NCBI GenBank assembly: GCA_020851735.1
Contig: JADZCD010000047.1
Location: 1 to 64,000, forward strand
DNA length: 64,000 nt
Origin: Phycisphaeraceae bacterium
GTDB taxonomy: Bacteria > Planctomycetota > Phycisphaerae > Phycisphaerales > Phycisphaeraceae
Reading direction: 5' to 3'
Under the pieces are notes generated by a model, which was given only the letters and a program-made list of their open reading frames with translations, ran no database searches and was not told where the DNA came from. The position numbers and the translations under genes were made by a program. This document shows positions 1 through 31,305 of the stretch, piece after piece. Every line of letters starts with the position of its first letter. Position 1 is the stretch's first letter.

Positions 1-2495
1 CCCTCGGAATCGCTCCCGGAACCTCTTATTCCCTCTCCCTCTCAGAGGGAGAGGGCAAGGGTGAGGGTGCAGCCCCCGGCGGCTCCCCACCCCCGTTTAG
101 CGGGCGGACCGAAGGTCCCCTCCCTCCCTCTCCCCAAGTTCCTTCCCTTCCCACCCCCGCAAATCGCCAATCGGCAATCGCCAATCGGCAATCCCCCCCC
201 TCCCTTGCCCTCTGCCTCGTCCCTCATCACGAACTCTTCCACCGCTACGGCACGCGCCGCCGCATCCGCCGCATCAGCGCCGGCACCGAACGCGCCAGCG
301 ACGCCTTCCTCGACTTGGAAGTCGGCGACTACGTCGTCCACGTCGATCACGGCATCGCCCGCTTCGTCGGGCTGCGCACCATGCGCCGCAACCAGGCCAC
401 CGAGGACTACCTCACCCTCGAATTCGCCGGCAAGGCCCTGTTGCACGTGCCCGCCACGCAGATGGACCTGATCCAGAAGTACGTCGGCGGGTTTGGCGGG
501 CGTCCTCCCTTAAGCATGCTCGGCGGCAAGCGCTGGGCCCGCCAGAAAGAGCAGGTCGCCGAAGCCGTCAAGGACTTGGCCGCCCAGATGCTGCGGATCC
601 AGGCCGCCCGCTCCAGCCTCCCCGGCGTGCGCTATCCCGCCGACACCGCCTGGCAAAAAGAGTTCGAGGCCGAGTTCCCCTACGAGGAAACCGAAGACCA
701 GCTCGCCGCCATCGCCGAAATCAAAAAAGACATGGCCGACGAGCAGCCCATGGACCGCCTGATCTGCGGCGACGTGGGCTTCGGCAAAACCGAAGTCGCC
801 ATCCGCGCCGCCTTCAAGGCCGTCGAATACGGCAAGCAGGTCGCCGTGCTCGTGCCCACCACCGTCCTCGCCGAGCAGCACGAGCGCACCTTCGCCGAGC
901 GCATGGCTGACTACCCCTTCCGCGTCGCCTCGCTCAGTCGCTTTAAGACCGGCAGCGAACAGAACGCCGTCCTTGGCGAATTATCCCAAGGCAAAGTCGA
1001 CGTGGTCATCGGCACCCATCGCCTGCTCAGCGAAGACGTCAAATTCGCCGACCTGGGCCTGGTCATCATCGACGAGGAGCAGCGCTTTGGCGTCGAGCAC
1101 AAGCAAAAACTCCTTAAATTCCGCTTAACCGCCGACGTCCTGACCCTCACCGCCACGCCCATCCCCCGCACCTTGCACATGTCCATGCTCGGGCTGCGCG
1201 ACATCAGCTCCCTCTCCACCGCCCCCCTTGACCGCCGCGCCATCGTCACCGAGGTCATCCCCTTCGACCAGCGCCGCATCCAGCAGGCCCTGCTCCGCGA
1301 ACTGAATCGCGAAGGCCAGGTCTACTTCGTCCACAACCGCGTCCACAACATCCAGTCCGTCGCCGACATGGTCCAGAAGCTCGTCCCCCAGGCCCGCATC
1401 GCCATCGGGCACGGGCAGATGGCCGGGCACGAGCTGGAAGCCGTCATGCTCCGCTTCATGCGCCGCCAGGTGGACATCCTCGTCTGCACCACCATCATCG
1501 AAAGCGGCATCGACATCGCCACCGCCAACACCATGTTCATCAACGAGGCCGACCACTTCGGGCTGGCCGATCTCCACCAGTTGCGCGGGCGCGTGGGGCG
1601 CTGGAAACACCGCGCCTATTGCTACCTCCTCCTGCCCGACGATCGGCCCATCACCGACACCGCCCAGCGCCGCTTAAAAGCCATCGAGCAATTCTCCATG
1701 CTCGGCGCCGGGTTTAAGATCGCCATGCGCGACCTGGAAATCCGCGGGGCCGGCAACCTCTTGGGCGCCGAACAGAGCGGGCACATCGCCGCCGTCGGGT
1801 ATGAAATGTACTGCAAGCTCCTAGAGCAGGAAGCCCGCAAGCTCCGCCAGGAAACCGTCGTCGAACCCGTCAAAACCCACATCGAGCTGGGCATCGTCGG
1901 GCGCATCACCCCCCAGTACATTCCCAGCGACAAATACCGCATGGACGCCTACCGCCGCCTCAGCCGCGCCGCCGCCGTCCAGGAACTCGAACTAGTCCGC
2001 CATGACATGGTCGACGCCTATGGCCCCGCCCCCGCGCTGGTGCAGACCCTGCTCGACCTAACCGAGCTGCGCATCCTCGCCAGCCTCGCCGGCATCAAAG
2101 GCATCCAACTCGACGGCCAAGACGTCATCTTCCGCGTCGACCCCCCCCCCGGAAGTCCCCTCGCCCCCGGAAGCTCTTATTCCCTCTCCCTCTCAGAGGG
2201 AGAGGGCAAGGGTGAGGGTGCAGCCCCCGGCTGCTCCCCATCCCCGTTTAGCGGGCGGACCGAAGGTCCCCTCCCTCCCTCTCCCCAAGATCCCTCCCTC
2301 GCCACTCCCGCCAATCGGCAATCGGCAATCGACAATCGGCCATCCCCCACCGCCCATGTCGTCGCCCTCTTCCGCCAGGCCCGCGGCCGCGTCACCGTCC
2401 TGGATGAAAAAACCGTCTACTATCGCCCGCCGGACCAATATCTAAAACCCGTCGAAACTCTCCTCGCCGTCCTGCGCAAAGTCCTCCGCGGTTGA
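1..2495 (+). CDS. mfd: Transcription-repair coupling factor Mfd, 5' end missing, with two in-frame repeat insertions
   Basis: Mfd is the DNA translocase that removes stalled RNA polymerase and recruits UvrA. The frame is open from base 3, so the gene enters from outside the window; the UvrB-like N-terminal part is not seen. In visible-residue numbering, the RNA polymerase-interacting (CarD-like) domain starts near 103 (GDYVVHVDHG). Walker A GDVGFGKTE is at 256-264, the DEEQ box at 357-360 and TATPIPRT from 383. The C-terminal UvrA-contacting domain ends the protein at VLRKVLRG. Residues about 4-66 and 714-783 are Pro/Gly/Ser-rich inserts encoded by two copies of the same repeat; family members lack them. 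The flanking helicase motifs are intact, so the gene is probably functional. Confidence 0.95.
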   Translation, partial: LGIAPGTSYSLSLSEGEGKGEGAAPGGSPPPFSGRTEGPLPPSPQVPSLPTPANRQSAIANRQSPPSLALCLVPHHELFHRYGTRRRIRRISAGTERASDAFLDLEVGDYVVHVDHGIARFVGLRTMRRNQATEDYLTLEFAGKALLHVPATQMDLIQKYVGGFGGRPPLSMLGGKRWARQKEQVAEAVKDLAAQMLRIQAARSSLPGVRYPADTAWQKEFEAEFPYEETEDQLAAIAEIKKDMADEQPMDRLICGDVGFGKTEVAIRAAFKAVEYGKQVAVLVPTTVLAEQHERTFAERMADYPFRVASLSRFKTGSEQNAVLGELSQGKVDVVIGTHRLLSEDVKFADLGLVIIDEEQRFGVEHKQKLLKFRLTADVLTLTATPIPRTLHMSMLGLRDISSLSTAPLDRRAIVTEVIPFDQRRIQQALLRELNREGQVYFVHNRVHNIQSVADMVQKLVPQARIAIGHGQMAGHELEAVMLRFMRRQVDILVCTTIIESGIDIATANTMFINEADHFGLADLHQLRGRVGRWKHRAYCYLLLPDDRPITDTAQRRLKAIEQFSMLGAGFKIAMRDLEIRGAGNLLGAEQSGHIAAVGYEMYCKLLEQEARKLRQETVVEPVKTHIELGIVGRITPQYIPSDKYRMDAYRRLSRAAAVQELELVRHDMVDAYGPAPALVQTLLDLTELRILASLAGIKGIQLDGQDVIFRVDPPPGSPLAPGSSYSLSLSEGEGKGEGAAPGCSPSPFSGRTEGPLPPSPQDPSLATPANRQSAIDNRPSPTAHVVALFRQARGRVTVLDEKTVYYRPPDQYLKPVETLLAVLRKVLRG
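12..200 (+). repeat. Composite repeat unit, copy 1, inside mfd
   Basis: This unit holds a CCCTCTCCCTC/GAGGGAGAGGG palindrome (about 30-54), a CAGCCCCCGG segment, GTTTAGCGGGCG at 95-106 followed by the small hairpin GGACCGAAGGTCC, and a tail of CAATCGGCAATCG-type tandem words. It is nearly identical to 2163-2345. It reads through in the Mfd frame without a stop, encoding SYSLSLSEGEGKGEG and following residues. Confidence 0.9.
2163..2345 (+). repeat. Composite repeat unit, copy 2, inside mfd
   Basis: This is the second copy of the unit at 12-200, in the same orientation and the same reading frame. It is almost base-for-base the same from CTTATTCCCTCTCC to TCTCCCCAAG and then diverges slightly in the tail. 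It interrupts the conserved C-terminal domain of Mfd and is preceded by two CCCCCGGAAG-type words at 2142-2172. Confidence 0.9.
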
Positions 2496-17903: not shown

Positions 17904-17945
17904 GGCGAGAGCGGGAACCGGGACGAGGCCGTTGACGTAGTACCA

Positions 17946-18011
17946 GAGCCCCCCCGGAAATCCCCCGGAAGTGCCCCCCCGGAATCCCCCGGAATCCCCC
18001 GGAAAATCCAC
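17946..18011. repeat. Array of CCCCCGGAAT/CCCCCGGAAG words
   Basis: Five to six tandem near-copies lie between the GT87-like gene and the subtilase-like gene. It is part of the dispersed CCGGAAG family. Confidence 0.8.
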
Positions 18012-18089
18012 CTTGGGGAACAATGGTGTGGGGAGATGTTGGCCCCTTGGCGGAGTTTAAATTCATTGTCCAACTACTATCAGCGTTAC

Positions 18090-19844
18090 ATGAAGTTTGT
18101 TTGTGGTCGGAGCCTGCGTGTTTATGTGGGGGCGATGGTGTTTGCGGCGGTGGTATTGGCCGAGGCGCATGTCTGGGGCGAGCGGACGCGGCCATATATC
18201 CCTGCGATTGCTGCGCCAACGGCGACGCGGCCGACGGTGCCGGCGGCGACGGGTCCGAGCACGCAGCCGGCGACCCAACCGGCGAGTCAACCGGCGACGC
18301 GGCCGAGCACGCAGCCGGTGCGTCGTCCGCCGTCCACGCGCAAGTTGATCGGCATGGACGCGTTGTTTCAGATGTGCAAGGGGGGGCCGCTGGGCGTGCC
18401 GCAGGGGCGGGGCGTGAAGGTGGCGCACGTGGAAGGGCCGGTGGGCCAGTACATGCCGGACGTCGCGAACCGGCGCTTTGAGCAGCTGATTCCGCGCGGC
18501 AAGAGCGGGGCGAGCCAGGTTTCCGGGCATGCCACGAGCACCAGTCAGATTATTTACGGCAGGAGCGGGCTGGCGCCGGGGATTGTCGACGTGCATTTTT
18601 ACGCCAGCGAGCACTGGCTGGGGGCGGGGTATTTGAATACCGGGTCGCCCTTGCCGCCGGTGGAGGACGATCGGCGGCTGTTCACGCACAGCTGGATCGC
18701 CGATTCGGCCAGGCTGGAGGCTGACGTGCTGCGGAGGGTGGATTATCTGGTGGATACGCGCGAGGACCTGGTGGTGGTGGGGGTGAACAACGGCAAGTCG
18801 ATGGTGCCGGCGTTGCTGGGCAGCGCTTATAACGTGATCGCGGTGGGGAATGATTCGGGGAACAGTTCGTCGGGGTACACGAGGGTGGAAGGTGAAGGGC
18901 GGTGCAAGCCGGACGTGGTGGCGCCGGGGGGACTGACCAGCTATGCGACGCCGGCGGTGGCGGCGGTGGTGGCGCGGTTGTTGGAGACGGCGGATGGGAT
19001 GGAGGACTGGCCGGACGCCCGGCGAGCGGCGGTGATCCGGGCGGTGCTGCTGGCTGGGGCGCAGAAGCTGCCGGGCTGGAAGCAGGAGGCGGGCAAGCCG
19101 TTGGACGGGCGATTGGGCGCGGGGCGGGTGCGCGTGGATCAGAGCTATCAGATATTGACGGCAGGGCCGATGAGTCCGGTGACACTTCCGGGGGCGGGGA
19201 CGTACCCCCCGGCAGAGCCGGGGGCTGCCCCGAATGCGCATGGGGGAGCGGGGGGACTTCCGGGGGCGGGGACGTATCCCCCGGCAGAGCCGGGGGCTGA
19301 CCCGAATGCGCAGGGGGGGGCGGGGGTGCTTCCGGGGATTCCGGGGGCGGGGGGGACCGATTCGAAGAGGCAGATGGGGTGGAGCTTTCACGCCTTGGCG
19401 GGCGGGGGTGTGGATGCGTATGAGTTCGAAGTGCCTTCGCCGGGGGGGGAGGCGTCGATCGTGCTGGCGTGGAATCGGCGGGTCGAGGGTGGGCTGGCCA
19501 AGGAGCTGATGACCGGGCGGGTGTTCTGGAATAACGGGGCGCGTCTGGCGGATTTGGATTTGTTTTTGTATCGGTTGCCGGCGGATGGGGAGCAAGGCCC
19601 GGTTCGGCGGCAGGTGGCGCAATCGTCGAGCAGGATCGACAACGTGGAGCACATTTATCAGCCGACGTTGGCGGCGGGGCGATATCGGCTTGAGGTGGTG
19701 CGGCTGGACCCCTTGGCGGAGGACTGGACGTATGGTCTGGCTTATCGCGTGACGCCGCCGGCGGGGCCTGGGGAGGGGCAGGAATCGGCCCAGACCCAGC
19801 CGGTCGCCACCGGGCCCAGGCCGAGCACGCAGATAAGTAAGTAA
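18090..19844 (+). CDS. Subtilisin-like (S8) secreted protein with altered catalytic Asp
   Basis: The product is about 584 aa. ATG at 18090 opens a signal peptide (VYVGAMVFAAVVLAEA). A Thr/Gln/Pro-rich linker occupies 40-85. The S8 landmarks follow: VKVAHVEGPV at 109-118, where the catalytic Asp is replaced by Glu115; SGHATSTSQII with His147; GVNNGKS in the oxyanion region; and TSYATPAVAAVVARLL with Ser284. A C-terminal beta-rich domain (about 425-570, DLDLFLYRLP) resembles a pre-peptidase-type domain. Residues about 366-420 are two GTYPPAEPGA units plus LPGAGG-type words encoded by repeats. The Asp-to-Glu change makes activity uncertain. Confidence 0.7.
   Translation: MKFVCGRSLRVYVGAMVFAAVVLAEAHVWGERTRPYIPAIAAPTATRPTVPAATGPSTQPATQPASQPATRPSTQPVRRPPSTRKLIGMDALFQMCKGGPLGVPQGRGVKVAHVEGPVGQYMPDVANRRFEQLIPRGKSGASQVSGHATSTSQIIYGRSGLAPGIVDVHFYASEHWLGAGYLNTGSPLPPVEDDRRLFTHSWIADSARLEADVLRRVDYLVDTREDLVVVGVNNGKSMVPALLGSAYNVIAVGNDSGNSSSGYTRVEGEGRCKPDVVAPGGLTSYATPAVAAVVARLLETADGMEDWPDARRAAVIRAVLLAGAQKLPGWKQEAGKPLDGRLGAGRVRVDQSYQILTAGPMSPVTLPGAGTYPPAEPGAAPNAHGGAGGLPGAGTYPPAEPGADPNAQGGAGVLPGIPGAGGTDSKRQMGWSFHALAGGGVDAYEFEVPSPGGEASIVLAWNRRVEGGLAKELMTGRVFWNNGARLADLDLFLYRLPADGEQGPVRRQVAQSSSRIDNVEHIYQPTLAAGRYRLEVVRLDPLAEDWTYGLAYRVTPPAGPGEGQESAQTQPVATGPRPSTQISK
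19184..19350 (+). repeat. Duplicated CTTCCGGGGG + CCCCCGGCAGAGCCGGGGG unit inside the subtilase-like gene
   Basis: Two tandem copies of about 72 bp each contain CTTCCGGGGGCGGGGACGTA and then a hairpin with CCCCCGGC/GCCGGGGG arms, followed by a third CTTCCGGGG stretch. All are in frame. Confidence 0.85.
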
Positions 19845-23144: not shown

Positions 23145-24239
23145 CTAGAGCAGCTGGGGCCCGAAGCGTTCGCCCACCTGCTTGTGGACTTTTTTGATGT
23201 CCTCGGCCTTATCGGCGCGGCAGACGAGGGTGGCGTCGGGGGTGTGCACGATCAACAGGTTTTCGCAGCCGACGGCGGCGATCAGGTGATGGGGATCGCT
23301 GGAGGCCACGAGGGTGTTGGCTGAGTCAAGGATCACGTGGCGGGCGGCGGCGACGGCGTTGTTGCGATCGTCCATCGGGCAGGTTTGGGCGAAGGCGGGC
23401 CAGGAACCGACGTCCAACCAGGTCAGGGGCATGGGCAGCGCGGCCACCTGGACGGAGGGGTCCTTGGCGGCCGGTTCCATGACGGCGTAATCGACGCTGA
23501 TTTTTTTAAGGGTGGGGTAGACGCGGGCGAGGACTTCGTCACGGCGGGGGGTGTCCCAGGCCCGGGCGATGGACATGATGCCTTCAAAATTGCCCGGCTC
23601 GTAGCGTTCGACGCAGCTTAAGAGCGTCTGGGCCCGCCAGACGAACATGCCGCTGTTCCAGAGGTATTGACGCGGCCCGGCATTGAGGTATTGGCGGGCG
23701 GTGACGGCGTCGGGCTTTTCCTTGAACTGGGCGACCTTGCGGGCTTGGCCGGCGATGGTGTCGGCCAGTTCGAGGTAGCCGTAGGCGGTGGCGGCGTACA
23801 AGGGAGCGATGCCGAAGGTCACGAGGGTTGTAGGCTGCTGTTCGGCCAGTTCGTACCCGGCGCGGACGACGGCCTGGAAGGTTTCGACCGGTTCGATGAT
23901 GTGATCGGCGGTGAAGATGGCCACGACGGCCTCGGGATCGTTGCGCCCGATGACGGCGGAGGCGAAGGCGACGGCGTTGAGGGTGTCGCGGCCTTCGGGT
24001 TCGCTTAGGTAGAGATCCGGGGCGAAATCAGGCAGGGCTTTTAGGACCTGGGGGCGAATGGCCTGGCCGGCGCAGATGTAGACGCGGTCGGATTCGATTA
24101 AGCCCTCTAAGCGTTGGCGGGCGATCTGGAGCAGGCTTTCTCCGCCGATGAAGGGGAGCAGTTGCTTGGGCATCGACGCCCGGCTCATGGGCCAAAGACG
24201 CGTGCCGGACCCGCCGGCCATGATGATCGCATAACGCAT
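23145..24239 (-). CDS. manC: Mannose-1-phosphate guanylyltransferase (GDP-mannose pyrophosphorylase)
   Basis: The product is 364 aa. ATG at 24239 gives MRYAIIMAGGSGTRLWPMSR, the nucleotidyltransferase signature, with KQLLPF following; longer in-frame upstream codons precede the fold and are rejected. Later motifs include FTADHII, QFKEKPDA and WNSGMFVW. The enzyme makes GDP-mannose from mannose-1-phosphate and GTP for polysaccharide and glycan synthesis. It lacks the C-terminal phosphomannose isomerase domain of type II enzymes. GDP-mannose could feed the GT87-like enzyme indirectly. Confidence 0.93.
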   Translation of the reverse strand: MRYAIIMAGGSGTRLWPMSRASMPKQLLPFIGGESLLQIARQRLEGLIESDRVYICAGQAIRPQVLKALPDFAPDLYLSEPEGRDTLNAVAFASAVIGRNDPEAVVAIFTADHIIEPVETFQAVVRAGYELAEQQPTTLVTFGIAPLYAATAYGYLELADTIAGQARKVAQFKEKPDAVTARQYLNAGPRQYLWNSGMFVWRAQTLLSCVERYEPGNFEGIMSIARAWDTPRRDEVLARVYPTLKKISVDYAVMEPAAKDPSVQVAALPMPLTWLDVGSWPAFAQTCPMDDRNNAVAAARHVILDSANTLVASSDPHHLIAAVGCENLLIVHTPDATLVCRADKAEDIKKVHKQVGERFGPQLL

Positions 24240-24462
24240 AGGGGGAATGTCCTTCGAACGCGTGGGGGGGACGAAGCCTCCTAATACATCGGCCAAACCA
24301 GGGGGAATCATCGCCAAGATGGGGGAAAGCGACAAATGGGGGAGGAGCGGGAGTTGGGGCTGGGGGATTTTACTTTTGGGCGCTGGCGAGGGAGGTGGGG
24401 AGAGGTTGGAGGTGACCGCGGCGGGCTGGGAGGGACGACGCGGCTGGCGGGGGGCCGATACA

Positions 24463-24487
24463 ACCCAGGCATGCAATGCCTGGGCTT
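24463..24487. repeat. AGCCC-type hairpin, inner arm AGGCA/TGCCT
   Basis: ACCCAGGCA/TGCCTGGGC around TGCAA. It is the same word as at 8502-8526. Confidence 0.7.
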
Positions 24488-24565
24488 GCTGAGGCAATCA
24501 AGACACGCACACGGCACGCGGTGGGATGCTGGGTAGCGCCCGGCGGGGCACGCGAGGGTTTGGAG

Positions 24566-24770
24566 TACCCCCCGGCGGAGCCGGGGGCTGAAGAGGGGCA
24601 ACATCCGGGGGAGGGGTTATCCGCGTCGGGGACGACGCGGCTGGCGGACGAAGGAATTCCGGGGGCGCTTCCGGGGCGCTTCCGGGGGCGGCGGGGGTGA
24701 TTTCACGGGCGGCGATCTGCGATCGCCCGCTAAACAAGACGACGTACCCCCCGGCGGAGCCGGGGGCTGC
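24566..24770 (+). repeat. Composite repeat block, intergenic copy of the rsmE insert
   Basis: The order is a CCCCCGGCGGAGCCGGGGG hairpin, GAAGAGGGGCAACATCCGGG, ATCCGCGTCGGGGACGACGC, GGAATTCCGGGGGCGCTTCC repeats, a GATCTGCGATC hairpin ending CGCTAAAC (24707-24735), and a second CCCCCGGCGGAGCCGGGGG hairpin. From about 24620 to 24770 it matches 28335-28484 with few differences. Confidence 0.9.
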
Positions 24771-24853
24771 GGGAAGAGGGGACAGACGCGGGATTGACGG
24801 GGGGGCGGGGGCCACTATTGTGGGGGGCCAACCTATTTCAATCCGGCGTTCCC

Positions 24854-26104
24854 GTGCGCAATCTATCGATTCAGTATTTTCTGGTGTTCACCGTGCTGGG
24901 GGCTTTGACGCCGTTCGTGCCGGTGTTCCTGGCATCGTCCCGGGGGATGAACGCGGCTGAGGTGGGGTATGTGTTGTCGGCGGCGAGTCTGGCGCCGATT
25001 TTAAGCCCGGTGATCATCACGTTTCTGGCCGACGCGGCGTTGTCCGCGCGGGTGTTGATCGGGCTGGCGTGTCTGACGGGGGGCGTGTGTCTGGCGGGGA
25101 TGCTGGGCAGTGGAGGTTTCTGGCCGACGTTGATTTTCTACTGTTTGTTTTCGCTGGTGTATCTGCCGCTGACGCCGGTGCAGGACGGTTTTTATTTTGC
25201 GCTAAGCAAGCATCGGGCGGCGGCGGGCCTGCGGACCCGGCCGTATCACCGGATTCGGGTGTGGGGGACGGTGGGATTTATCTTGCCGGGGGTGGTTTTG
25301 TGGGCGTTGTTGCAGCGGGAGAGTCTGGACCCGTGGATGTTGCTGGTGGCGATGGGTTTCGCGGGTCTGGCGTTGGGCAACAGTTTCACGCTGCCGGTGC
25401 TGCTGGGCGAGGAGCGGGGGCGGAAGATCGCGGCGAAGGTGGAAGGGGGCGAAGAATCGCTGGCGGTGGAGACGACGGGCCGACCGGAGTCCACGCTGCC
25501 GACGGTGGCGGCGCTGCGGGTGTGCCTGCAGAAGCGGCTATTGATTTTTTTTGTGGCGATGTTTTTAACGAACGTGGCGGCGGCGATGTATTACGGTTTT
25601 TACCCGATTTACTTAAAGACCACGGTGGGCTTTGGGGATTCGTGGCTGGGGGTGATCGCGGACGTGGGGGTGGTGGTGGAGATTTTTTTCATGCTGGCGT
25701 TCGGCAGGATGGTCGCGTGGCTGGGCTTAAAGCGGTATCTGGTGATGGGCGTGGGGTGCATGACGCTGCGGATGCTGTTTCTGGCGGTTTTGCCTTGCCC
25801 GCTGGTGGCGGTGGGGACGCAGTTATTTCACGGGGTGCAGGTGGTGTCGATGCACGTGGCGCCGCCGGTGTATCTGGATCGCCATGCCCAGGATCACTAT
25901 CGGAGTTCGATTCAGGGGCTGTTTTCGATGGTGGTCATCGGTCTGGGCCGGCTGGGGGGGAATATTCTCGGCGGGCAGGTGGCGATGGTTTCCCTGCAGG
26001 GGGCGTTCTACGTAGCGGCGGGTTTATGCGTGCTGGCGACGCTGCTGCTGGCGTTTTATTTTCGGGAGCAGGAAGTGGGGGAGGCGGCGCCGGCGGGGGG
26101 ATGA
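24854..26104 (+). CDS. MFS transporter, MFS_1-like
   Basis: The product is about 416 aa with 12 hydrophobic helices. GTG at 24854 gives MRNLSIQYFLVFTVLGALTP; a longer in-frame TTG start would run into the repeat block and is disfavoured. FALSKHRAAAGLRTRPYHRI in the central loop with the RVWGTVGFI segment, and QGLFSMVVIGLGRLGGNILGG late in the protein, match MFS_1-like/nucleoside-symporter-type permeases (LacY/NupG-related). The substrate is unknown. Upstream and downstream spacers are both repeat-rich. Confidence 0.85.
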   Translation: MRNLSIQYFLVFTVLGALTPFVPVFLASSRGMNAAEVGYVLSAASLAPILSPVIITFLADAALSARVLIGLACLTGGVCLAGMLGSGGFWPTLIFYCLFSLVYLPLTPVQDGFYFALSKHRAAAGLRTRPYHRIRVWGTVGFILPGVVLWALLQRESLDPWMLLVAMGFAGLALGNSFTLPVLLGEERGRKIAAKVEGGEESLAVETTGRPESTLPTVAALRVCLQKRLLIFFVAMFLTNVAAAMYYGFYPIYLKTTVGFGDSWLGVIADVGVVVEIFFMLAFGRMVAWLGLKRYLVMGVGCMTLRMLFLAVLPCPLVAVGTQLFHGVQVVSMHVAPPVYLDRHAQDHYRSSIQGLFSMVVIGLGRLGGNILGGQVAMVSLQGAFYVAAGLCVLATLLLAFYFREQEVGEAAPAGG

Positions 26105-26180
26105 GGAGGTCAATGGTTCCAGGGATTTTTTGCTGGGCTTTGGGGAGTGGAGGGCGCGTTAATTTTTTTGGGATCGGTCA

Positions 26181-26226
26181 GATACACCCTCTCCCGGCCT
26201 CTCCCTCAAGGAGGGAGAGGAGTTAG
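26181..26226. repeat. CCCTC/GAGGG palindrome, intergenic
   Basis: GATACACCCTCTCCCGGCCT and CTCCCTC/GAGGGAG form the palindrome. The GATACACCCTCTCCCGGCC start is shared with 34100 and approximately with 16936. Confidence 0.8.
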
Positions 26227-26258
26227 ATGCGGATACGAGTTGCGATGATCTTTCGGGG

Positions 26259-26326
26259 GGAACATTCCGGGGGAACGTTCCGGGGAAACGTTCCGGGGGA
26301 GCATGCCGGGGGAAAAATCCGGGGGG
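26259..26326. repeat. Array of CATTCCGGGGGAACGTTCC-like words
   Basis: Five successive TTCCGGGG/GCCGGGGG words spaced 13-16 bases directly abut the stop codon of the minus-strand disordered membrane protein. Confidence 0.8.
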
Positions 26327-26327
26327 A

Positions 26328-27698
26328 TCAGGTGGCGGCCAGCATGCGGATGAGGGAATAGAGCATCACGACGGTGCCGTTGAAGAGGGTCAGGAGGGCG
26401 ACGTACCCGACGGCCTGGCGGGAGGGCATGGACAGGCGGTAGACGGGCATATTGACGATGCGGCAGATGTGGAAGATGGGGTTGCCGCGCTGGGGTGGGG
26501 CGGGCTCTTCGGCGATTTCCGCGGCGGCGTCGGCAGGTTGGCTGTCAACGGGCTCGGCGCGGGAAGAACTTGCCGGTGCGGAGCTTGCGGGGGCGGGTTT
26601 TTCTTTGGGTTCTTCGTCTAGTTCTTTAGCGACGTCGTTGGCGGTGGCCTGGAAGCCCTGGGGCGCGGAGGCAGCGGCGGGTGTTTCTTCGGCGGCGGCC
26701 TGGGGCTCGGTGGTTGGGGGTGCTGGCGGCTCAGACTGGGCGGCGACGGCGGGTTCGGGCTCGGTTTTGACTTCGACGGGTGGGTGGGGAGGGGCAACCA
26801 GACCTTCGGTTTCCGCTTGCGTGGGAACCTCAGATCCGGCTTTGATGCTTGCGGGGGTGGGGGCTTTGGGTGCGCGGGAAGTTGCGGTGGCGGGAGTGGG
26901 GGGACTTCCAGGGGCTGGGGCGGTGGTGGGGGGGACGATTTGTTCGTCGCCCAGGACGTCTTGGACGGTTTCAAAGTCGCCGGCGACGGATTTATCGGCT
27001 TCGCTGGCGAGGAGTTCGTCGATTTGATGGACGACTTGGGCGGTGGCGGGATCGTTTTCGGCGGCGGCCTCGGCAGGTGGCGGGGGAGCAGGGGCTGGTT
27101 TGCGCGGGCGCGGCGCATTGGCGGAGCTGGCGGGCGCGGGCTGGGATTGCAGCGCGGCGGCGTTGTTGAGCAGATCCTGGATCTGGCTGGAGAGCGCGTC
27201 CTCGGCGGACGGTTCGTTGGCGGCGGATGCCTGTGGGCTGGCCTGGCTGGCGGCTTGGCCCTGGGGCGGCTGATTCTCCTCGACCTTTGATGGCGTCACA
27301 CCATGCTCCAATTCTTGCTTAGGCGCGGCGGGCTTGGGCGCGTCCGTCGGGCGGGCGGTTGCGGGTGCGGGCGGTTGGGCGGCTGCGGACTCCTTGGGGA
27401 GTGCGGCGGCGGCTGGCGTTGACCCCGGAGCTGGTGGTGCGAGTTCCTCGACTTTCTGTGCGGCGGCGGCAGGGGCGGCGTCAGGCGAAGCGGAAGCGGG
27501 AACGATGGGGTTCTGCGGCGCGTCGTCGGGAGAAGGCTTGACGACCTTGGGCTCGCCTAACCCGGCGGCTTTCATGAACCCGGGCTCTTCCTGCTCGACA
27601 GCGGCCAGCAACTGCTCGAGTTGCTGTTGGAGGTCCTGATCGTCTTGGCCGAAGGTTTTGGCCAAAGCGCTTTTTCTCCCCGTCACGGCCCGCACCAT
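26328..27698 (-). CDS. Disordered tail-anchored membrane protein, unknown
   Basis: The product is 456 aa. A short conserved-looking helical N-terminus (DDQDLQQQLEQLLAAVEQEE) is followed by about 370 residues of Ala/Pro/Glu/Ser-rich sequence, probably disordered, with two further short helices (SSQIQDLLNNAA and VVHQIDELLAS). The end has one clear membrane helix (VGYVALLTLFNGTVVMLYSLI). Topology suggests an insertion with the tail in the membrane and the rest cytoplasmic. The two Q/D-I-D/Q-LL helices are similar to each other and may be protein-binding motifs. A repeat module lies within the coding region at 26796-26845. Confidence 0.7.
   Translation of the reverse strand: MVRAVTGRKSALAKTFGQDDQDLQQQLEQLLAAVEQEEPGFMKAAGLGEPKVVKPSPDDAPQNPIVPASASPDAAPAAAAQKVEELAPPAPGSTPAAAALPKESAAAQPPAPATARPTDAPKPAAPKQELEHGVTPSKVEENQPPQGQAASQASPQASAANEPSAEDALSSQIQDLLNNAAALQSQPAPASSANAPRPRKPAPAPPPPAEAAAENDPATAQVVHQIDELLASEADKSVAGDFETVQDVLGDEQIVPPTTAPAPGSPPTPATATSRAPKAPTPASIKAGSEVPTQAETEGLVAPPHPPVEVKTEPEPAVAAQSEPPAPPTTEPQAAAEETPAAASAPQGFQATANDVAKELDEEPKEKPAPASSAPASSSRAEPVDSQPADAAAEIAEEPAPPQRGNPIFHICRIVNMPVYRLSMPSRQAVGYVALLTLFNGTVVMLYSLIRMLAAT
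26796..26845 (+). repeat. GGACCTTCGGTT hairpin copy inside a minus-strand gene
   Basis: AACCAGACCTTCGGTTTCCG pairs with GGGAACCTCAGATCCGGC. The plus strand matches module ii of the GT87-like gene at 16978, but here the opposite strand is translated (KAGSEVPTQAETEGLVAP). Confidence 0.8.
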
Positions 27699-27838
27699 CC
27701 CACACCCCCTGCATCAGTGGCAGAATGAGCGGGCTTCTGCCATGATGATTCTTGAGTCCTCCGGAGGTTTTATCGACCCCTTTGACTCGTTACTCAAGGT
27801 TGCCGGCGCCTTTGGCCATGACCGCGGACACCGCTTGC

Positions 27839-28762
27839 ATGTACCGATTCTATTGCCCGCATCTTCCTGTTCTGCCGACTGGTAAGGGCTTATCAGACCT
27901 TACGAGTCAGGAGGTGGCGTTATCCAGGGAGGAATCGCATCACGGGCTGGGGGTTTTGCGTCTGCGGGCGGGGGAGGAAGTGGAGCTGTTCGACGGGCAG
28001 GGCGGGTTGGCGCGGGGTCGGCTGGCGGTGGCGGGGAAGACGGCGGTGGTGGCGTTGGCGCGGCTGTGGCGGGTGGCGGAGCCCCGGCTGCGGATCGATG
28101 TGGCGGCGGCGATTCCCAAGGGGGCGCGGGTGGATCAGATGGTCGAGCAACTGACGCAACTGGGGGCGGATCGGCTGATTCCGCTGGTGACGGCGCGGAG
28201 CGTGGTGGACCCGCGGGCGGGCAAGCTCCAGCGGCTGCGGCAGCACGTGGTGGAGGCGACCAAGCAGTGCGGCAGGGCGTATTTGATGGGAATTGGGGAG
28301 AGCATGGGGCTGGGGGAGGTGTTGGGGGAGGGGGTATCCGCGTCGGGGACGACGCGGCTCGCTGAGGAAGGAATTCCGGGGGCGCTTCCGGGGGTGCTTC
28401 CGGGGGCGGGGGTGATTTCACGGGCGGCGATCTGCGATCGCCCGCTAAACAAGACGACGTACCCCCCGGCGGAGCCGGGGGCTGAAGAGGGGCAACATCC
28501 GGGGGCGGGGGTGGGGGTTAGGTTGATGGCGGATCCGGGGGGCAAGGGGATGTCGGAATTGCGGGCACGAATAGGGGAAGCTCGGAGGGTGCTGGTGTTG
28601 ATTGGCCCGGAGGGCGGGTGGACGGATGAGGAACGGGAGATGGCGGTGGCGGGTGGGTGTCTGCCTTGGGCGCTGAGCGGGCAGGTGCTGCGGATCGAAA
28701 CCGCGGCGGCGGCGGCGGTGGCGATTCTGCGGCAAGACGAAGTGGGCCCGGCGGCAGTCTGA
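27839..28762 (+). CDS. rsmE: 16S rRNA m3U1498 methyltransferase RsmE with a repeat-encoded insertion
   Basis: RsmE methylates N3 of U1498 in 16S rRNA and has an N-terminal PUA-like domain and a C-terminal SPOUT knot. ATG at 27839 (MYRFYCPHLP) is chosen by fold; the earlier in-frame ATG lacks support. REESHHGLGVLRLRAGEEV, AAIPKGARVDQMVEQLTQLG and VEATKQCGR are typical. The knot motif LIGPEGGWTDEE (from about 255) and the C-terminal LRIETAAAAAVAIL are intact. The length is 307 aa against roughly 240 usual. The surplus is residues about 158-233, a Gly/Pro-rich insert from the repeat block at 28310-28540, placed between conserved strands and read through in frame. Confidence 0.93.
   Translation: MYRFYCPHLPVLPTGKGLSDLTSQEVALSREESHHGLGVLRLRAGEEVELFDGQGGLARGRLAVAGKTAVVALARLWRVAEPRLRIDVAAAIPKGARVDQMVEQLTQLGADRLIPLVTARSVVDPRAGKLQRLRQHVVEATKQCGRAYLMGIGESMGLGEVLGEGVSASGTTRLAEEGIPGALPGVLPGAGVISRAAICDRPLNKTTYPPAEPGAEEGQHPGAGVGVRLMADPGGKGMSELRARIGEARRVLVLIGPEGGWTDEEREMAVAGGCLPWALSGQVLRIETAAAAAVAILRQDEVGPAAV
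28325..28520 (+). repeat. Composite repeat block inside rsmE
   Basis: ATCCGCGTCGGGGACGACGC, GGAATTCCGGGGGCGCTTCC, GATCTGCGATC with CGCTAAAC (28422-28450), and the CCCCCGGCGGAGCCGGGGG hairpin (28458-28483) occur in the same order as the intergenic block at 24620-24770. No stop codon arises in the rsmE frame. Confidence 0.92.
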
Positions 28763-28828
28763 GCCCTTTTGACCGTCCTACAATGTGGTCCGAATCTTTA
28801 GCATCACCAAACTATCAGGTGCCCCTTT

Positions 28829-29812
28829 ATGACTCATTCCCCCACCCCCGGAAGCAGCCCCACCCCCGGAAGTCACCCCGGAAGCAACCCCGGAAGTCAT
28901 TCCACCCACGGAGGGCTGAGTGTTGGTCAAGGTGGTCCGCATGGCGCGGGAGCGGGCCAAGAAAACCAGGGACCTGACCTTAGGGAAAAGGGCGGGCTGC
29001 GCGATGGTCAATTGCAGTACTCGCAGCACAGGCTGTACATGCAGCTGCTGGTGCTGCGGGAGTGCGGGGATTACCAGGTGATCGTAGAGGGGTTAGAGAA
29101 GGTGTTCGGGAAACCAGAGGGATTACATTCCAAGGAGGCACACAGCACCCTTCGGGATGCTGTGTGGCACCCGGCCCGCACGCAGGACCAGAATGACCCC
29201 CCGGCGGAGCCGGGGGCTGAAACATTGACGTCACCGACATGTTTTGGGGGAGTCGTTTATGCGGATCTGCATGATCCCCGGGGGGTGGGGGTGTTGACGT
29301 TTCACACGGATCCGGGGTTTTTTGTACAGACGCTGCGGCCGGTGCTGAATCAGGGGAAGCTGGCGGAATGCAGGTGTGATGCGGGCATGACGATGTTCGG
29401 GCGCAGCTACGGCAGCGGGTTTGAGGCGGATCTGGAGGATTGGCTGATCGATCATCCCCGGCGGACGGTGCTCAATCCGGATTGGCCCTGGGCGGTGTGG
29501 TATCCGTTGCGGCGGAAGGGGGAGTTTGAGGCTCTGGAGGCCCAGGAGCAGCGGGCGATCATGGGGGAACACGGGCAGATCGGGCGGGCATTTGTGGCGG
29601 CGGGGCACGTGCATGACGTGCGGCTGGCGTGCCACGGGCTGGACCGGAATGACAATGATTTTCTATTGGGACTGGTGGCCGCCCAGCTGCATCCGTTGTC
29701 GGCGATCGTGCAGGCGATGCGGAAGACGCGGCAGACTTCCCGGTACTTACAGAGCTTAGGTCCGTTTTTTGTGGGCAGGGCGGTTTGGCGCAGCGACGAT
29801 TACAGGCCATGA
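28829..29812 (+). CDS. Chlorite dismutase (Cld) family protein with two repeat-derived segments
   Basis: The product is 327 aa. The second half matches the Cld/haem-peroxidase-like family found in Planctomycetota: LEDWLIDHP, WAVWYPLRRKGEFEALE, EHGQIGRAFVAAG, VRLACHGLDRNDNDFLLGL, and MRKTRQTSRYLQSLGPFFVG. The first half has REKGGLRDGQLQYSQHRLYM and ADLHDPRGVGVL. Family members bind haem or have lost it; activity cannot be judged from sequence. Residues about 5-30 (PTPGSSPTPGSHPGSNPGS) come from CCCCGGAAG words, and about 104-131 (SKEAHSTLRDAVWHP and following) from a CACACAGCA hairpin plus a CCCCCGGC hairpin. Homologues have no such insert at that position. Confidence 0.75.
   Translation: MTHSPTPGSSPTPGSHPGSNPGSHSTHGGLSVGQGGPHGAGAGQENQGPDLREKGGLRDGQLQYSQHRLYMQLLVLRECGDYQVIVEGLEKVFGKPEGLHSKEAHSTLRDAVWHPARTQDQNDPPAEPGAETLTSPTCFGGVVYADLHDPRGVGVLTFHTDPGFFVQTLRPVLNQGKLAECRCDAGMTMFGRSYGSGFEADLEDWLIDHPRRTVLNPDWPWAVWYPLRRKGEFEALEAQEQRAIMGEHGQIGRAFVAAGHVHDVRLACHGLDRNDNDFLLGLVAAQLHPLSAIVQAMRKTRQTSRYLQSLGPFFVGRAVWRSDDYRP
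28849..28915 (+). repeat. CCCCGGAAG array inside the Cld-family gene
   Basis: Four CCCCGGAAGC/T words at 9-18 base spacing encode the PGS-rich N-terminus. Confidence 0.85.
29139..29220 (+). repeat. CACACAGCA hairpin followed by CCCCCGGCGGAGCCGGGGG hairpin, inside the Cld-family gene
   Basis: 29139-29172 is an exact copy of module iii of the GT87-like gene, in the same reading frame. 29196-29220 is the hairpin also present in rsmE, read as PPAEPGAE in both. Confidence 0.9.
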
Positions 29813-29859
29813 TTCACACTTAAGTTGATCAACGCACCCGCAGGCATTTGAGGTTTGCC

Positions 29860-31305
29860 ATGACGTCCACTTCGTATTCCATGCAAGAACGATTCGCGGC
29901 GGCCAAGCAAGCGCTGGAGCAATGCGACCAGCTTCACCTGCTGGCGTATTACGAGGCGCTGTTGCCGGCCGACCGGCAGCACCTGTTGGCGCAGATGGAA
30001 TCGGTGGACTGGCAGGAGCTGGGCAGGCTGGTGGAGTCGCACGTGCGCCAGCGCCCGGAATTGAAGTTGCCCGACCGCATCGACCCGGCCCCGTGTTATC
30101 CGTGGCCGGCCAGTCCGGACCTGCGGGAGAAGTATCGGCATGCCCGGCAGCTGGGCGAGGATCTGTTGCGGGCGGGGAAGGTGGCGGCGTTCACGGTGGC
30201 GGGCGGGCAGGGCACGCGGCTGGGGTGGAACGGGCCGAAGGGGACTTTCCCGGCCACGCCGATCCGCAAGCTGCCGCTGTTTGGGTGTTTTGCGGAGTAC
30301 ATTCGCAAGGCCCAGCAGAAATACAGCTGCGTGATTCCCTGGTATGTGATGACCAGTCCGGTCAACGACGCGCAGACGCGGCACTATTTGCAGGAGAACG
30401 CTTATTTTGGCCTGGACGCGGGCAACGTGGTTGTTTTTCCGCAGGGCATGATGCCGGCGTTGGACCTGGTGTCGGGCAAGGTGCTGATGGAGTCGCCATC
30501 GTCGATCGCCCTTTCACCCAACGGGCACGGCGGGTCGCTCAAGGCGTTGTACACCCAGGGGGCGGTGGCGGACATGAAGAACCGGGGCATCGAACACATC
30601 AGCTACGTGCAGGTGGACAATCCGTCGGTGAGGGTGGTGGACCCGCTGTTCATCGGGCTGCACGCGTTGGATAAGGCCCAGATGTCCTCGAAGATGCTGC
30701 CCAAGGCGTTTCCCAAGGAAAAGCTGGGGAACTTCTGCATCGTGGACGGGCGGATGACGGTGATTGAATATTCCGACCTGCCCGACGAGCTGGCCGAGCA
30801 GCGGCTGGCCAACGGGGAGCTGCGCTTCCGGGCGGGGTCGATTGCCATTCACGTCTTGCGGACGGATTTTGTCGAATCGCTTAACACCCGGGCGGGAGGA
30901 TTCGCCCTGCCGTATCACCGGGCGGAGAAGAAGGTGCCGTATCTGGACCTGGACACGGGGCAGGTGGTTAAGCCGCAGAATCCCAACGCGGTGAAGCTGG
31001 AGACGTTTGTGTTTGACGCGCTGCCGTTCTGCACGGCGTCGATTATTCTGCAGACGGACCGGATCGACGAATTCGCGCCGATCAAGAACGCCGACGGGAT
31101 CGACTCGCCGAGCACGAGCCGGGCGCTGCAGATTGAGCGGGCGGCCCGCTGGCTGGAGGCGCGGGGCGTGAAGGTGCCGCGGTCGGAAGAAGGCGGGGTG
31201 GATGCGATTCTGGAGATCAGCCCGCTGACGGCCATTGAACCTGGGGATTTGGCGGACGTGAAGCTGCCGGAGCAGATCGAGCGGCGGGCGTCGGTGTTGT
31301 TTTGA
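29860..31305 (+). CDS. UDPGP-family nucleotidyltransferase (probable UDP-N-acetylhexosamine or UDP-glucose pyrophosphorylase)
   Basis: The product is 481 aa; ATG at 29860 is preferred over a TTG four codons upstream. VAGGQGTRLGWNGPKGTFP (near 114) is the eukaryotic-type UDPGP signature with the catalytic Lys. The ALSPNGHGGSLKAL segment and QVDNPSVRVVDP are the uridine/metal-binding regions. LETFVFDALPF and the following segment resemble UAP1-like UDP-GlcNAc/GalNAc pyrophosphorylases more than bacterial GalU. The reaction is sugar-1-phosphate plus UTP to UDP-sugar; the exact sugar is not determined. Confidence 0.88.
   Translation: MTSTSYSMQERFAAAKQALEQCDQLHLLAYYEALLPADRQHLLAQMESVDWQELGRLVESHVRQRPELKLPDRIDPAPCYPWPASPDLREKYRHARQLGEDLLRAGKVAAFTVAGGQGTRLGWNGPKGTFPATPIRKLPLFGCFAEYIRKAQQKYSCVIPWYVMTSPVNDAQTRHYLQENAYFGLDAGNVVVFPQGMMPALDLVSGKVLMESPSSIALSPNGHGGSLKALYTQGAVADMKNRGIEHISYVQVDNPSVRVVDPLFIGLHALDKAQMSSKMLPKAFPKEKLGNFCIVDGRMTVIEYSDLPDELAEQRLANGELRFRAGSIAIHVLRTDFVESLNTRAGGFALPYHRAEKKVPYLDLDTGQVVKPQNPNAVKLETFVFDALPFCTASIILQTDRIDEFAPIKNADGIDSPSTSRALQIERAARWLEARGVKVPRSEEGGVDAILEISPLTAIEPGDLADVKLPEQIERRASVLF

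Follow-up and report, generated by a model that had tools for sequence, protein, structure and literature searches.

Short palindromic repeats inside protein-coding genes have been described in several bacteria. Di Nocera et al. 2013 (PMC3733652) report GTAG/CGTC palindromes linked to RAYTs (REP-associated tyrosine transposases) within open reading frames (ORFs) of Opitutus terrae, Thauera, and Rickettsia conorii; the genes hosting these repetitive extragenic palindromic sequences (REPs) include repair and tRNA-synthetase genes, and the clusters encode up to 82 aa. Rickettsia palindromic elements (RPEs; PMC10969869, PMC2229807) occupy intergenic sites as well as in-frame positions in protein genes, and a Gmk carrying one is reported to be translated and active. 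In Pseudomonas fluorescens, doublets are the prevailing form, and only 14 of the 1,067 16-mers with the highest abundance overlap a gene (Bertels and Rainey 2011, PMC3116915). For Y1 transposases, a survey (PMC6006769) describes a class 3 of TnpA-Y1, mainly from Planctomycetes, with the signature NHVH, W[TA], YV[VI][AENY]EQ; unexpectedly long proteins were dropped there as fusions or annotation errors, and tRNA synthetases are not mentioned in the passages of the survey that we draw on. Here we analyze a window of 64,000 nucleotides from a Phycisphaeraceae bacterium (assembly GCA_020851735.1, contig JADZCD010000047.1, positions 1 to 64,000), in which a block of repeats lies inside rsmE, the gene of the 16S rRNA m3U1498 methyltransferase, and again, nearly unchanged, in the spacer between a manC-like gene and an MFS transporter gene.

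The block is very probably a mosaic of mobile REPs and G-rich iterons that was copied locally into the spacer and into a loop of RsmE, and was kept in frame in rsmE. We base this on the identity of the two copies, their mosaic build, the absence of the block in relatives, the retention of the frame, a genome-wide frame bias, RAYTs flanked by several repeat families, and the local, direct copying of such blocks. The features of the two sites are:

27818..28762, plus strand: rsmE, 16S rRNA m3U1498 methyltransferase, 314 aa from the ATG at 27818 (336 aa from the alternative TTG at 27752)
28331..28516, plus strand: rsmE insert, about residues 172-233, in frame
28337..28357, plus strand: module J in rsmE, hairpin CCGCGTC..GACGCGG
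28373..28412, plus strand: D iterons in rsmE, TTCCGGGGGCGC, 12-nt period
28426..28450, plus strand: module C in rsmE, REP, GGCGATCTGCGATCGCCCGCTAAAC, 0 mismatches
28461..28485, plus strand: module A in rsmE, REP, ACCCCCCGGCGGAGCCGGGGGCTGA
24607..24781, plus strand: intergenic twin block, with J at 24620-24640, C at 24711-24735, and A' at 24746-24770
24565..24616, plus strand: extra A module and right flank beside the twin, matching the right end of the rsmE insert (28459-28510) at 98% over 52 nt
23145..24233, minus strand: manC-like gene on one side of the twin (PF00483, PF22640)
24854..26104, plus strand: MFS transporter gene on the other side (PF12832, PF03825; gene caller start at 24818)

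Positions 24607-24781 and 28324-28492 are identical at 163 of 176 columns (93%), with three indels of 1, 3, and 4 nt, which confirms the near base-for-base twinning of the two blocks that had been proposed from a sequence-only reading of the window. The module order is A-x-J-D-C-A' in the spacer, a partial tandem, and J-D-C-A-x in rsmE, a single tandem unit between GGGGGAGGGG (left) and GGGGGCGGGG (right). In a genome-wide search with 24560-24780 as query, matches over most of the query were limited to the block itself and its rsmE counterpart, and the runner-up had 74% identity over 134 query bases; blastn of the twin against a plasmid collection gave no match. The resemblance of the two blocks is far above chance, yet their component repeats occur genome-wide and are not confined to these two sites. 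The pair is one instance of a genome-wide pattern and no lone event. Within rsmE the block is open and in frame, with both halves of the enzyme on either side of it, whereas translating the spacer copy in that register gives a frameshift in the D array, from a 1-nt difference, followed by two stops; no predicted gene covers this copy. The proposal that the same DNA sits at a coding and a noncoding site is thereby supported; the noncoding status of the spacer copy is inferred rather than proven, because a minus-strand ORF of 105 aa, consisting nearly wholly of repeats (24498-24815), crosses it.

RsmE scores 120.1 bits against TIGR00046, well over the family cut-off of 41, and the top Foldseek matches of its predicted structure are solved RsmE structures. 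It also matches PF20260, and its match to PF04452, the SPOUT domain (121.3 bits), is split in two stretches. The insert thus lies within the SPOUT domain, ahead of the IGPEGGW knot motif, and not between a PUA-like/linker segment and the knot, where it had initially been placed. The first reading had the enzyme extended from some 240 to 307 aa; its length from the ATG is 314 aa, and the 29 aligned relatives have 221-293 aa as we delimited them. The relatives come from 40 genomes, none of the same genus as the host (41 with this genome, G000); an RsmE match was obtained in 38 of the 41, this genome counted, and the remaining three are misses. All 29 relatives in the alignment (L002-L030) lack the block. 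At the same site, 27 of them have 6 residues or fewer, while 31 unrelated residues occur in L008 and 15 in L025, so the loop is naturally variable in length. The AlphaFold model of RsmE, built on an alignment of 15 sequences, has a mean pLDDT of 72.7; residues 173-241, between the helices 165-171 and 243-252, are the sole long stretch with pLDDT below 50, and the insert segment is accordingly predicted to be disordered. RsmE presumably retains its function despite the insert.

The rsmE block is not a protein domain but is pieced together, as a mosaic, from three hairpin repeats (J, C, and A) with 12-bp iterons (D) linking them. Repeats were counted either in the whole genome or in a sample of 837,893 of its 3,561,976 bases (the 838-kb sample), the first part of which comprises 443,394 bases (C47, C62, C37, and part of C34). 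Module A (ACCCCCCGGCRGAGCCGGGGGCTGA) has 168 genomic copies at up to 3 mismatches, with 0 for a reversed-pattern control, module J has 20 genomic copies at the same threshold, and module C occurs at 35 places in the sample; each of the three folds as a hairpin, and the J stem of G024 has changes on either arm that preserve pairing (judged by eye). As a single strand, the whole repeat block is mildly more stable than its shuffles (z -1.66), but such stability is in itself no evidence. A, J, and C are short, palindromic, and high-copy, as REPs are. They do not bear the unpaired tetranucleotide at the stem foot that tags the GTAG/CGTC superfamilies, as A begins with GTAC and ends with CTGA, nor do they form a REPIN (REP doublet forming a hairpin) in rsmE, where A, C, and J are each single; inverted A doublets are present in G008. 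The J-D-C-A order common to two loci, together with the A-D, J-D, and A-B-D combinations elsewhere, agrees with bacterial interspersed mosaic elements, and in rsmE and queA the repeats are in frame in a conserved gene and missing in its homologues, as expected of intragenic REP- or RPE-like insertions.

Module D (CCCCCGGAAG) accounts for 356 cores in the 838-kb sample, often spaced by 12 nt, and its tandem form occurs 307 times in this genome; we considered D as a DNA-uptake-like word and dropped the idea, since D is clustered at a 12-nt period. Tandems of D (GCCCCCGGAAGY) were seen in 23 of the 41 genomes, with more than 200 in G015. D-like letters also stand within the loop of B hairpins (L131:11569-11759, L040, L041), as though one repeat had entered another. 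Two further repeats were noticed in this genome: a larger dispersed one, some 300-700 bp long, in which B and D modules occur (C10, C17, C18, C37, C57, C62), and a CRISPR-like one, GTCGCCCCCCACGCGGGGGCGTGGATTGAAAC, with about 50 copies in the first part of the sample.

RAYT genes flanked by four repeat families (B, C, F, and G) are present in the same genome. Six matches to PF01797 were found, with B flanking the RAYT at C1, G that at C15, inverted copies of C that at C24, and F that at C28; a fifth RAYT (C65) is flanked by an A-like inverted pair, and no known module adjoins the sixth (C42) within the distance inspected. Among the relatives, a RAYT of G008 (C51) is flanked by exact inverted C repeats and one of G009 by A-type repeats, while J was absent beside the 20 RAYT loci fetched, save for one match with 5 mismatches. 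The usual test therefore marks C as a REP, whereas A qualifies through the relatives and J through its form only.

Inside genes, the modules lie mostly in frames that give Pro/Gly/Ala/Ser peptides. The 838-kb sample holds 17 strictly coding A copies, of which 6 read as YPPAEPGAE-like and 10 as SAPGSAGG-like peptides and 1 uses a third frame, with none in the two Arg-containing open frames; the concentration of 16/17 copies in two of five open frames has a Monte Carlo p of 0.007 over 12 distinct ORFs. The third A frame is also the one used in the maf gene. Counted by ORF, D is distributed over the six frames as 8, 15, 1, 19, 11, and 1 (chi-square p = 2e-5), so that 53 of 55 ORF-frame cases fall outside the two Arg/Lys/Phe frames, which encode PRK and FRG and are nearly empty. 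The distance from one D to another is a multiple of 3 in all 35 coding pairs, in 8/8 mixed pairs, and in 49 of 81 noncoding pairs; the last value exceeds one third, probably owing to coding copies that went unrecognized, as in maf.

The arrangement of composite blocks also speaks for local copying. We collected 19 pairs, each with a length of 78 bp or more and an identity of 85% or more, in which A, C, D, G, or J is present and E, F, and H are absent. Eight of these pairs lie in the same piece, at most 6.2 kb apart, and all eight are in direct orientation, the chance of a local direct arrangement being about 0.014 for a random pair; seven of the other 11 look to us like one larger dispersed repeat. 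Besides the rsmE pair, the local set includes a 192-bp pair shared by maf and an 833-aa ORF and a pair within an mfd-like gene:

3..2495, plus strand: mfd-like gene, 5' end open at the contig start, TRCF, DEAD, and CarD domains, one 830-codon open frame

Its two repeat blocks (10-222 and 2161-2373) are 90% identical and in the same frame. The copies of the 192-bp block (L131:8540-8724 and 11569-11759) are 3.0 kb apart, antisense in maf and sense in the 833-aa ORF; this pair (C19) was rejected as a second coding/noncoding twin, as its first copy lies within maf on the other strand. With 8/19 pairs local and every one of them direct, the data favor short-range copying of composites in addition to the dispersal of single REPs.

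Genes that carry modules are common in the sample. In 33 of 628 predicted genes we found one of the named REP-like modules (A, B, C, F, G, or J) flanked on either side by coding signal, and in 61 any module; for the first part of the sample alone, the respective numbers are 14 and 28 of 319. The coding classes of our gene caller are lower bounds. By our reading of the coordinates, the module lies inside one Pfam match or between its two stretches in at least 14 of the 30 ORFs scanned, the domains being NadA, sulfatase, UvrD-like helicase, HAD hydrolase, amino-acid kinase, QueA, GT87, SpoU methylase, TauE, class-III aminotransferase, GatB, ABC permease, DUF1015, and GltX; in other ORFs the module is outside the matched domain, and several have no family match at all. 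In QueA, residues 157-178 are covered by none of the 21 relatives in which both halves are matched, and MutS has J and D between its domains I and II. Two further carriers were recorded, the first of them just downstream of rsmE:

28829..29812, plus strand: HemQ/chlorite-dismutase-like gene, PF06778 over residues 216-318 only
17904..19841, plus strand: subtilase-like gene with two tandem A modules, 19204-19228 and 19276-19300

The long N-terminal part of the HemQ-like protein is largely made of repeats, namely D iterons, module B (29138-29172), and module A (29196-29220). In relatives, ORFs with A-type REPs match RuvB and Mfd/TRCF (L158, L159, G009) and a class I tRNA synthetase (L143, G008); the latter was rejected as a valyl-tRNA synthetase (ValRS), its match being under the valS cut-off. 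Repair genes recur among these carriers, in line with the hosts named by Di Nocera et al. (PMC3733652).

RAYT transposases, which are HUH nucleases, are considered to mobilize REPs of such a kind in single-stranded form. Single REPs of the present families would likewise have been moved by their RAYTs. Composite blocks, once in existence, are copied over short range and in direct orientation, the probable mechanism being template switching or gene conversion at G-rich junctions. One copying event may then have brought the composite unit to both the manC-MFS spacer and the length-variable rsmE loop, where it would be translated as about 62 disordered, mostly Pro/Gly/Ala/Ser residues. Selection would have retained only the in-frame version in rsmE, the spacer copy drifting out of frame.

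Other explanations have to be weighed against this one. That a spacer repeat was wrongly placed in rsmE by the assembly, an error that the sequence-only reading had itself named as fatal to its claim, is conceivable in a draft genome of 69 contigs, as repeats break assemblies; it is nevertheless extremely unlikely, given that 13 of the 176 columns differ between the copies, indels among them, that the two halves of RsmE run on in order and in frame on one contig, and that like inserts occur in many other genes and other genomes. The insert could instead be a functional module selected for its peptide, such as an RNA- or partner-binding loop, with the spacer copy derived from it. Its retention in frame and the biased peptide frames would fit, as would the J consensus flank of other loci, which agrees better with the rsmE copy than with the spacer copy (by eye). 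However, unrelated enzymes carry these modules too, in either orientation and in several frames, and the stretch is predicted to be disordered, with a bias to bland residues and no single motif, which makes this explanation very unlikely. Removal or skipping of the insert (by RNA splicing, intein-like protein splicing, or translational bypass), which would make its frame irrelevant, might explain why inserts are tolerated within conserved domains of housekeeping enzymes. We regard it as highly improbable: a skipped insert would show no bias of spacing or frame, whereas the coding D spacing is always a multiple of 3 and frames with stops or with charged or bulky residues are avoided; also, an Rfam scan of 24200-29900 matched no family.

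A doubtful but possible alternative is that the D iterons and G-rich runs drive the spread by minisatellite-like expansion and recombination, the REP hairpins being passengers without any role of a RAYT at rsmE. D tandems are common in the 23 genomes mentioned even where A is rare, and the local, direct twin pairs would suit recombination or template switching; on the other side, this genome also encodes RAYTs for the REP families, whose copies are scattered throughout it in either orientation. Several points count against the RAYT-linked mosaic that we prefer. In this genome, RAYTs bordered by A proper, by J, or by D were not found, so that the REP label for these three rests on palindromy, copy number, and, for A, the RAYT of a relative. 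By eye, neither GTAG nor CGTC adjoins A, C, or J in the window sequence. The frame test for A is based on 12 ORFs, and the part of the sample beyond the first, about half of the total, was picked for its high A content. Finally, the gene caller is a simple one of our own that missed maf, and its coding and noncoding classes are imperfect.

The transposase gene itself can also lie in frame in a host gene. The family-G RAYT of this genome is embedded in the sole ValRS above the valS cut-off (L163:142-3864:+, at C15), and the same ValRS loop is occupied by a RAYT in 6 of the 40 relatives, hence in 7 of 41 genomes with this one (L163-L165, L167-L170). For six of the seven, Pfam recognizes Y1_Tnp together with both halves of ValRS, two of the Y1_Tnp scores being slightly under Pfam's own cut-off; in the seventh (G036) the piece ends within the gene. 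Inverted repeats border the embedded transposase in all seven. Two embedded RAYT lineages can be told apart, with 25-35% mutual identity over this region; G028 holds the second, and G032 and G036 of the same genus hold the first. From 400 genomes of the order, 40 further RAYT loci in long frames were fetched, and 36 of them are ValRS (L179-L214), with the transposase between the DQW and SRQLWWG motifs (Pfam was run on three); the other four are one LeuRS-like (L215) and three Ham1-family loci (L216-L218). A ValRS-embedded RAYT is thus present in at least 43 of 400 genomes, with about two dozen further candidates outside this count. Rough trees of the embedded RAYT and of ValRS are hardly correlated (Mantel r 0.09 overall, -0.07 and 0.14 inside two groups), which speaks against simple vertical descent. 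Outside the class, G676 (L219) has the same RAYT lineage and a REP in frame in an adenine-specific-methyltransferase-like ORF, judged by reading only. No arrangement joining a valyl-tRNA synthetase, or any tRNA synthetase, with a RAYT was found in the open-access literature searched.

From these sequences, we think it rather probable that the REP/RAYT elements of this order live inside coding sequence. REP mosaics, the rsmE block among them, would be tolerated as bland linkers in essential enzymes, and RAYTs with inverted REPs, from at least two lineages and with a tree unlike that of the host enzyme, would reside in frame at one loop of the single valS and also in genes of the LeuRS-like, Ham1-family, and methyltransferase-like types. 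Such a lifestyle would be new for a transposase, which would persist without splicing in genes that cannot be lost and possibly spread between valS genes in a homing-like manner. If so, in-frame residence in indispensable genes would be a means of transposase persistence; a confirmed transposase in ValRS would account for the persistence of single-copy RAYTs, and would leave to be explained how an essential synthetase can hold a DNA nuclease at its center. At the scale of the window, one genome shows the same mobile DNA under coding and noncoding constraint, a natural test of which loops, frames, and peptides proteins tolerate. Automatic annotations and protein models of the group hold many repeat-derived segments that resemble domains.

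REPs inside genes were already known from Rickettsia and Opitutus, and no report of in-frame REP mosaics in planctomycetes was found in the literature searched; what appears new to us is the way the mosaics are built, the bias of their frames, the direct copying at short range, and the presence of a transposase in an essential gene. With the REPs of PMC3733652, the present ones share that they are short, RAYT-linked palindromes in ORFs. They differ in that several REP families and G-rich iterons form mosaics with a tag other than GTAG/CGTC, in their biased frames and local block copying, and in that a RAYT gene itself lies in frame in a host gene. Like RPEs, they are palindromic repeats found both in frame in genes and between genes, but RPEs measure about 100-150 bp and no transposase is named for them in the passages cited, whereas the modules here are of 20-35 bp, composite, and from RAYT-linked families. 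As in P. fluorescens, RAYTs are flanked by their own REPs and many copies are dispersed; here, however, 6 of the 32 A copies in the first part of the sample are strictly coding, and the A of rsmE is a singlet. The RAYT embedded in the ValRS of this genome, for its part, resembles TnpA-Y1 class 3 (PMC6006769).

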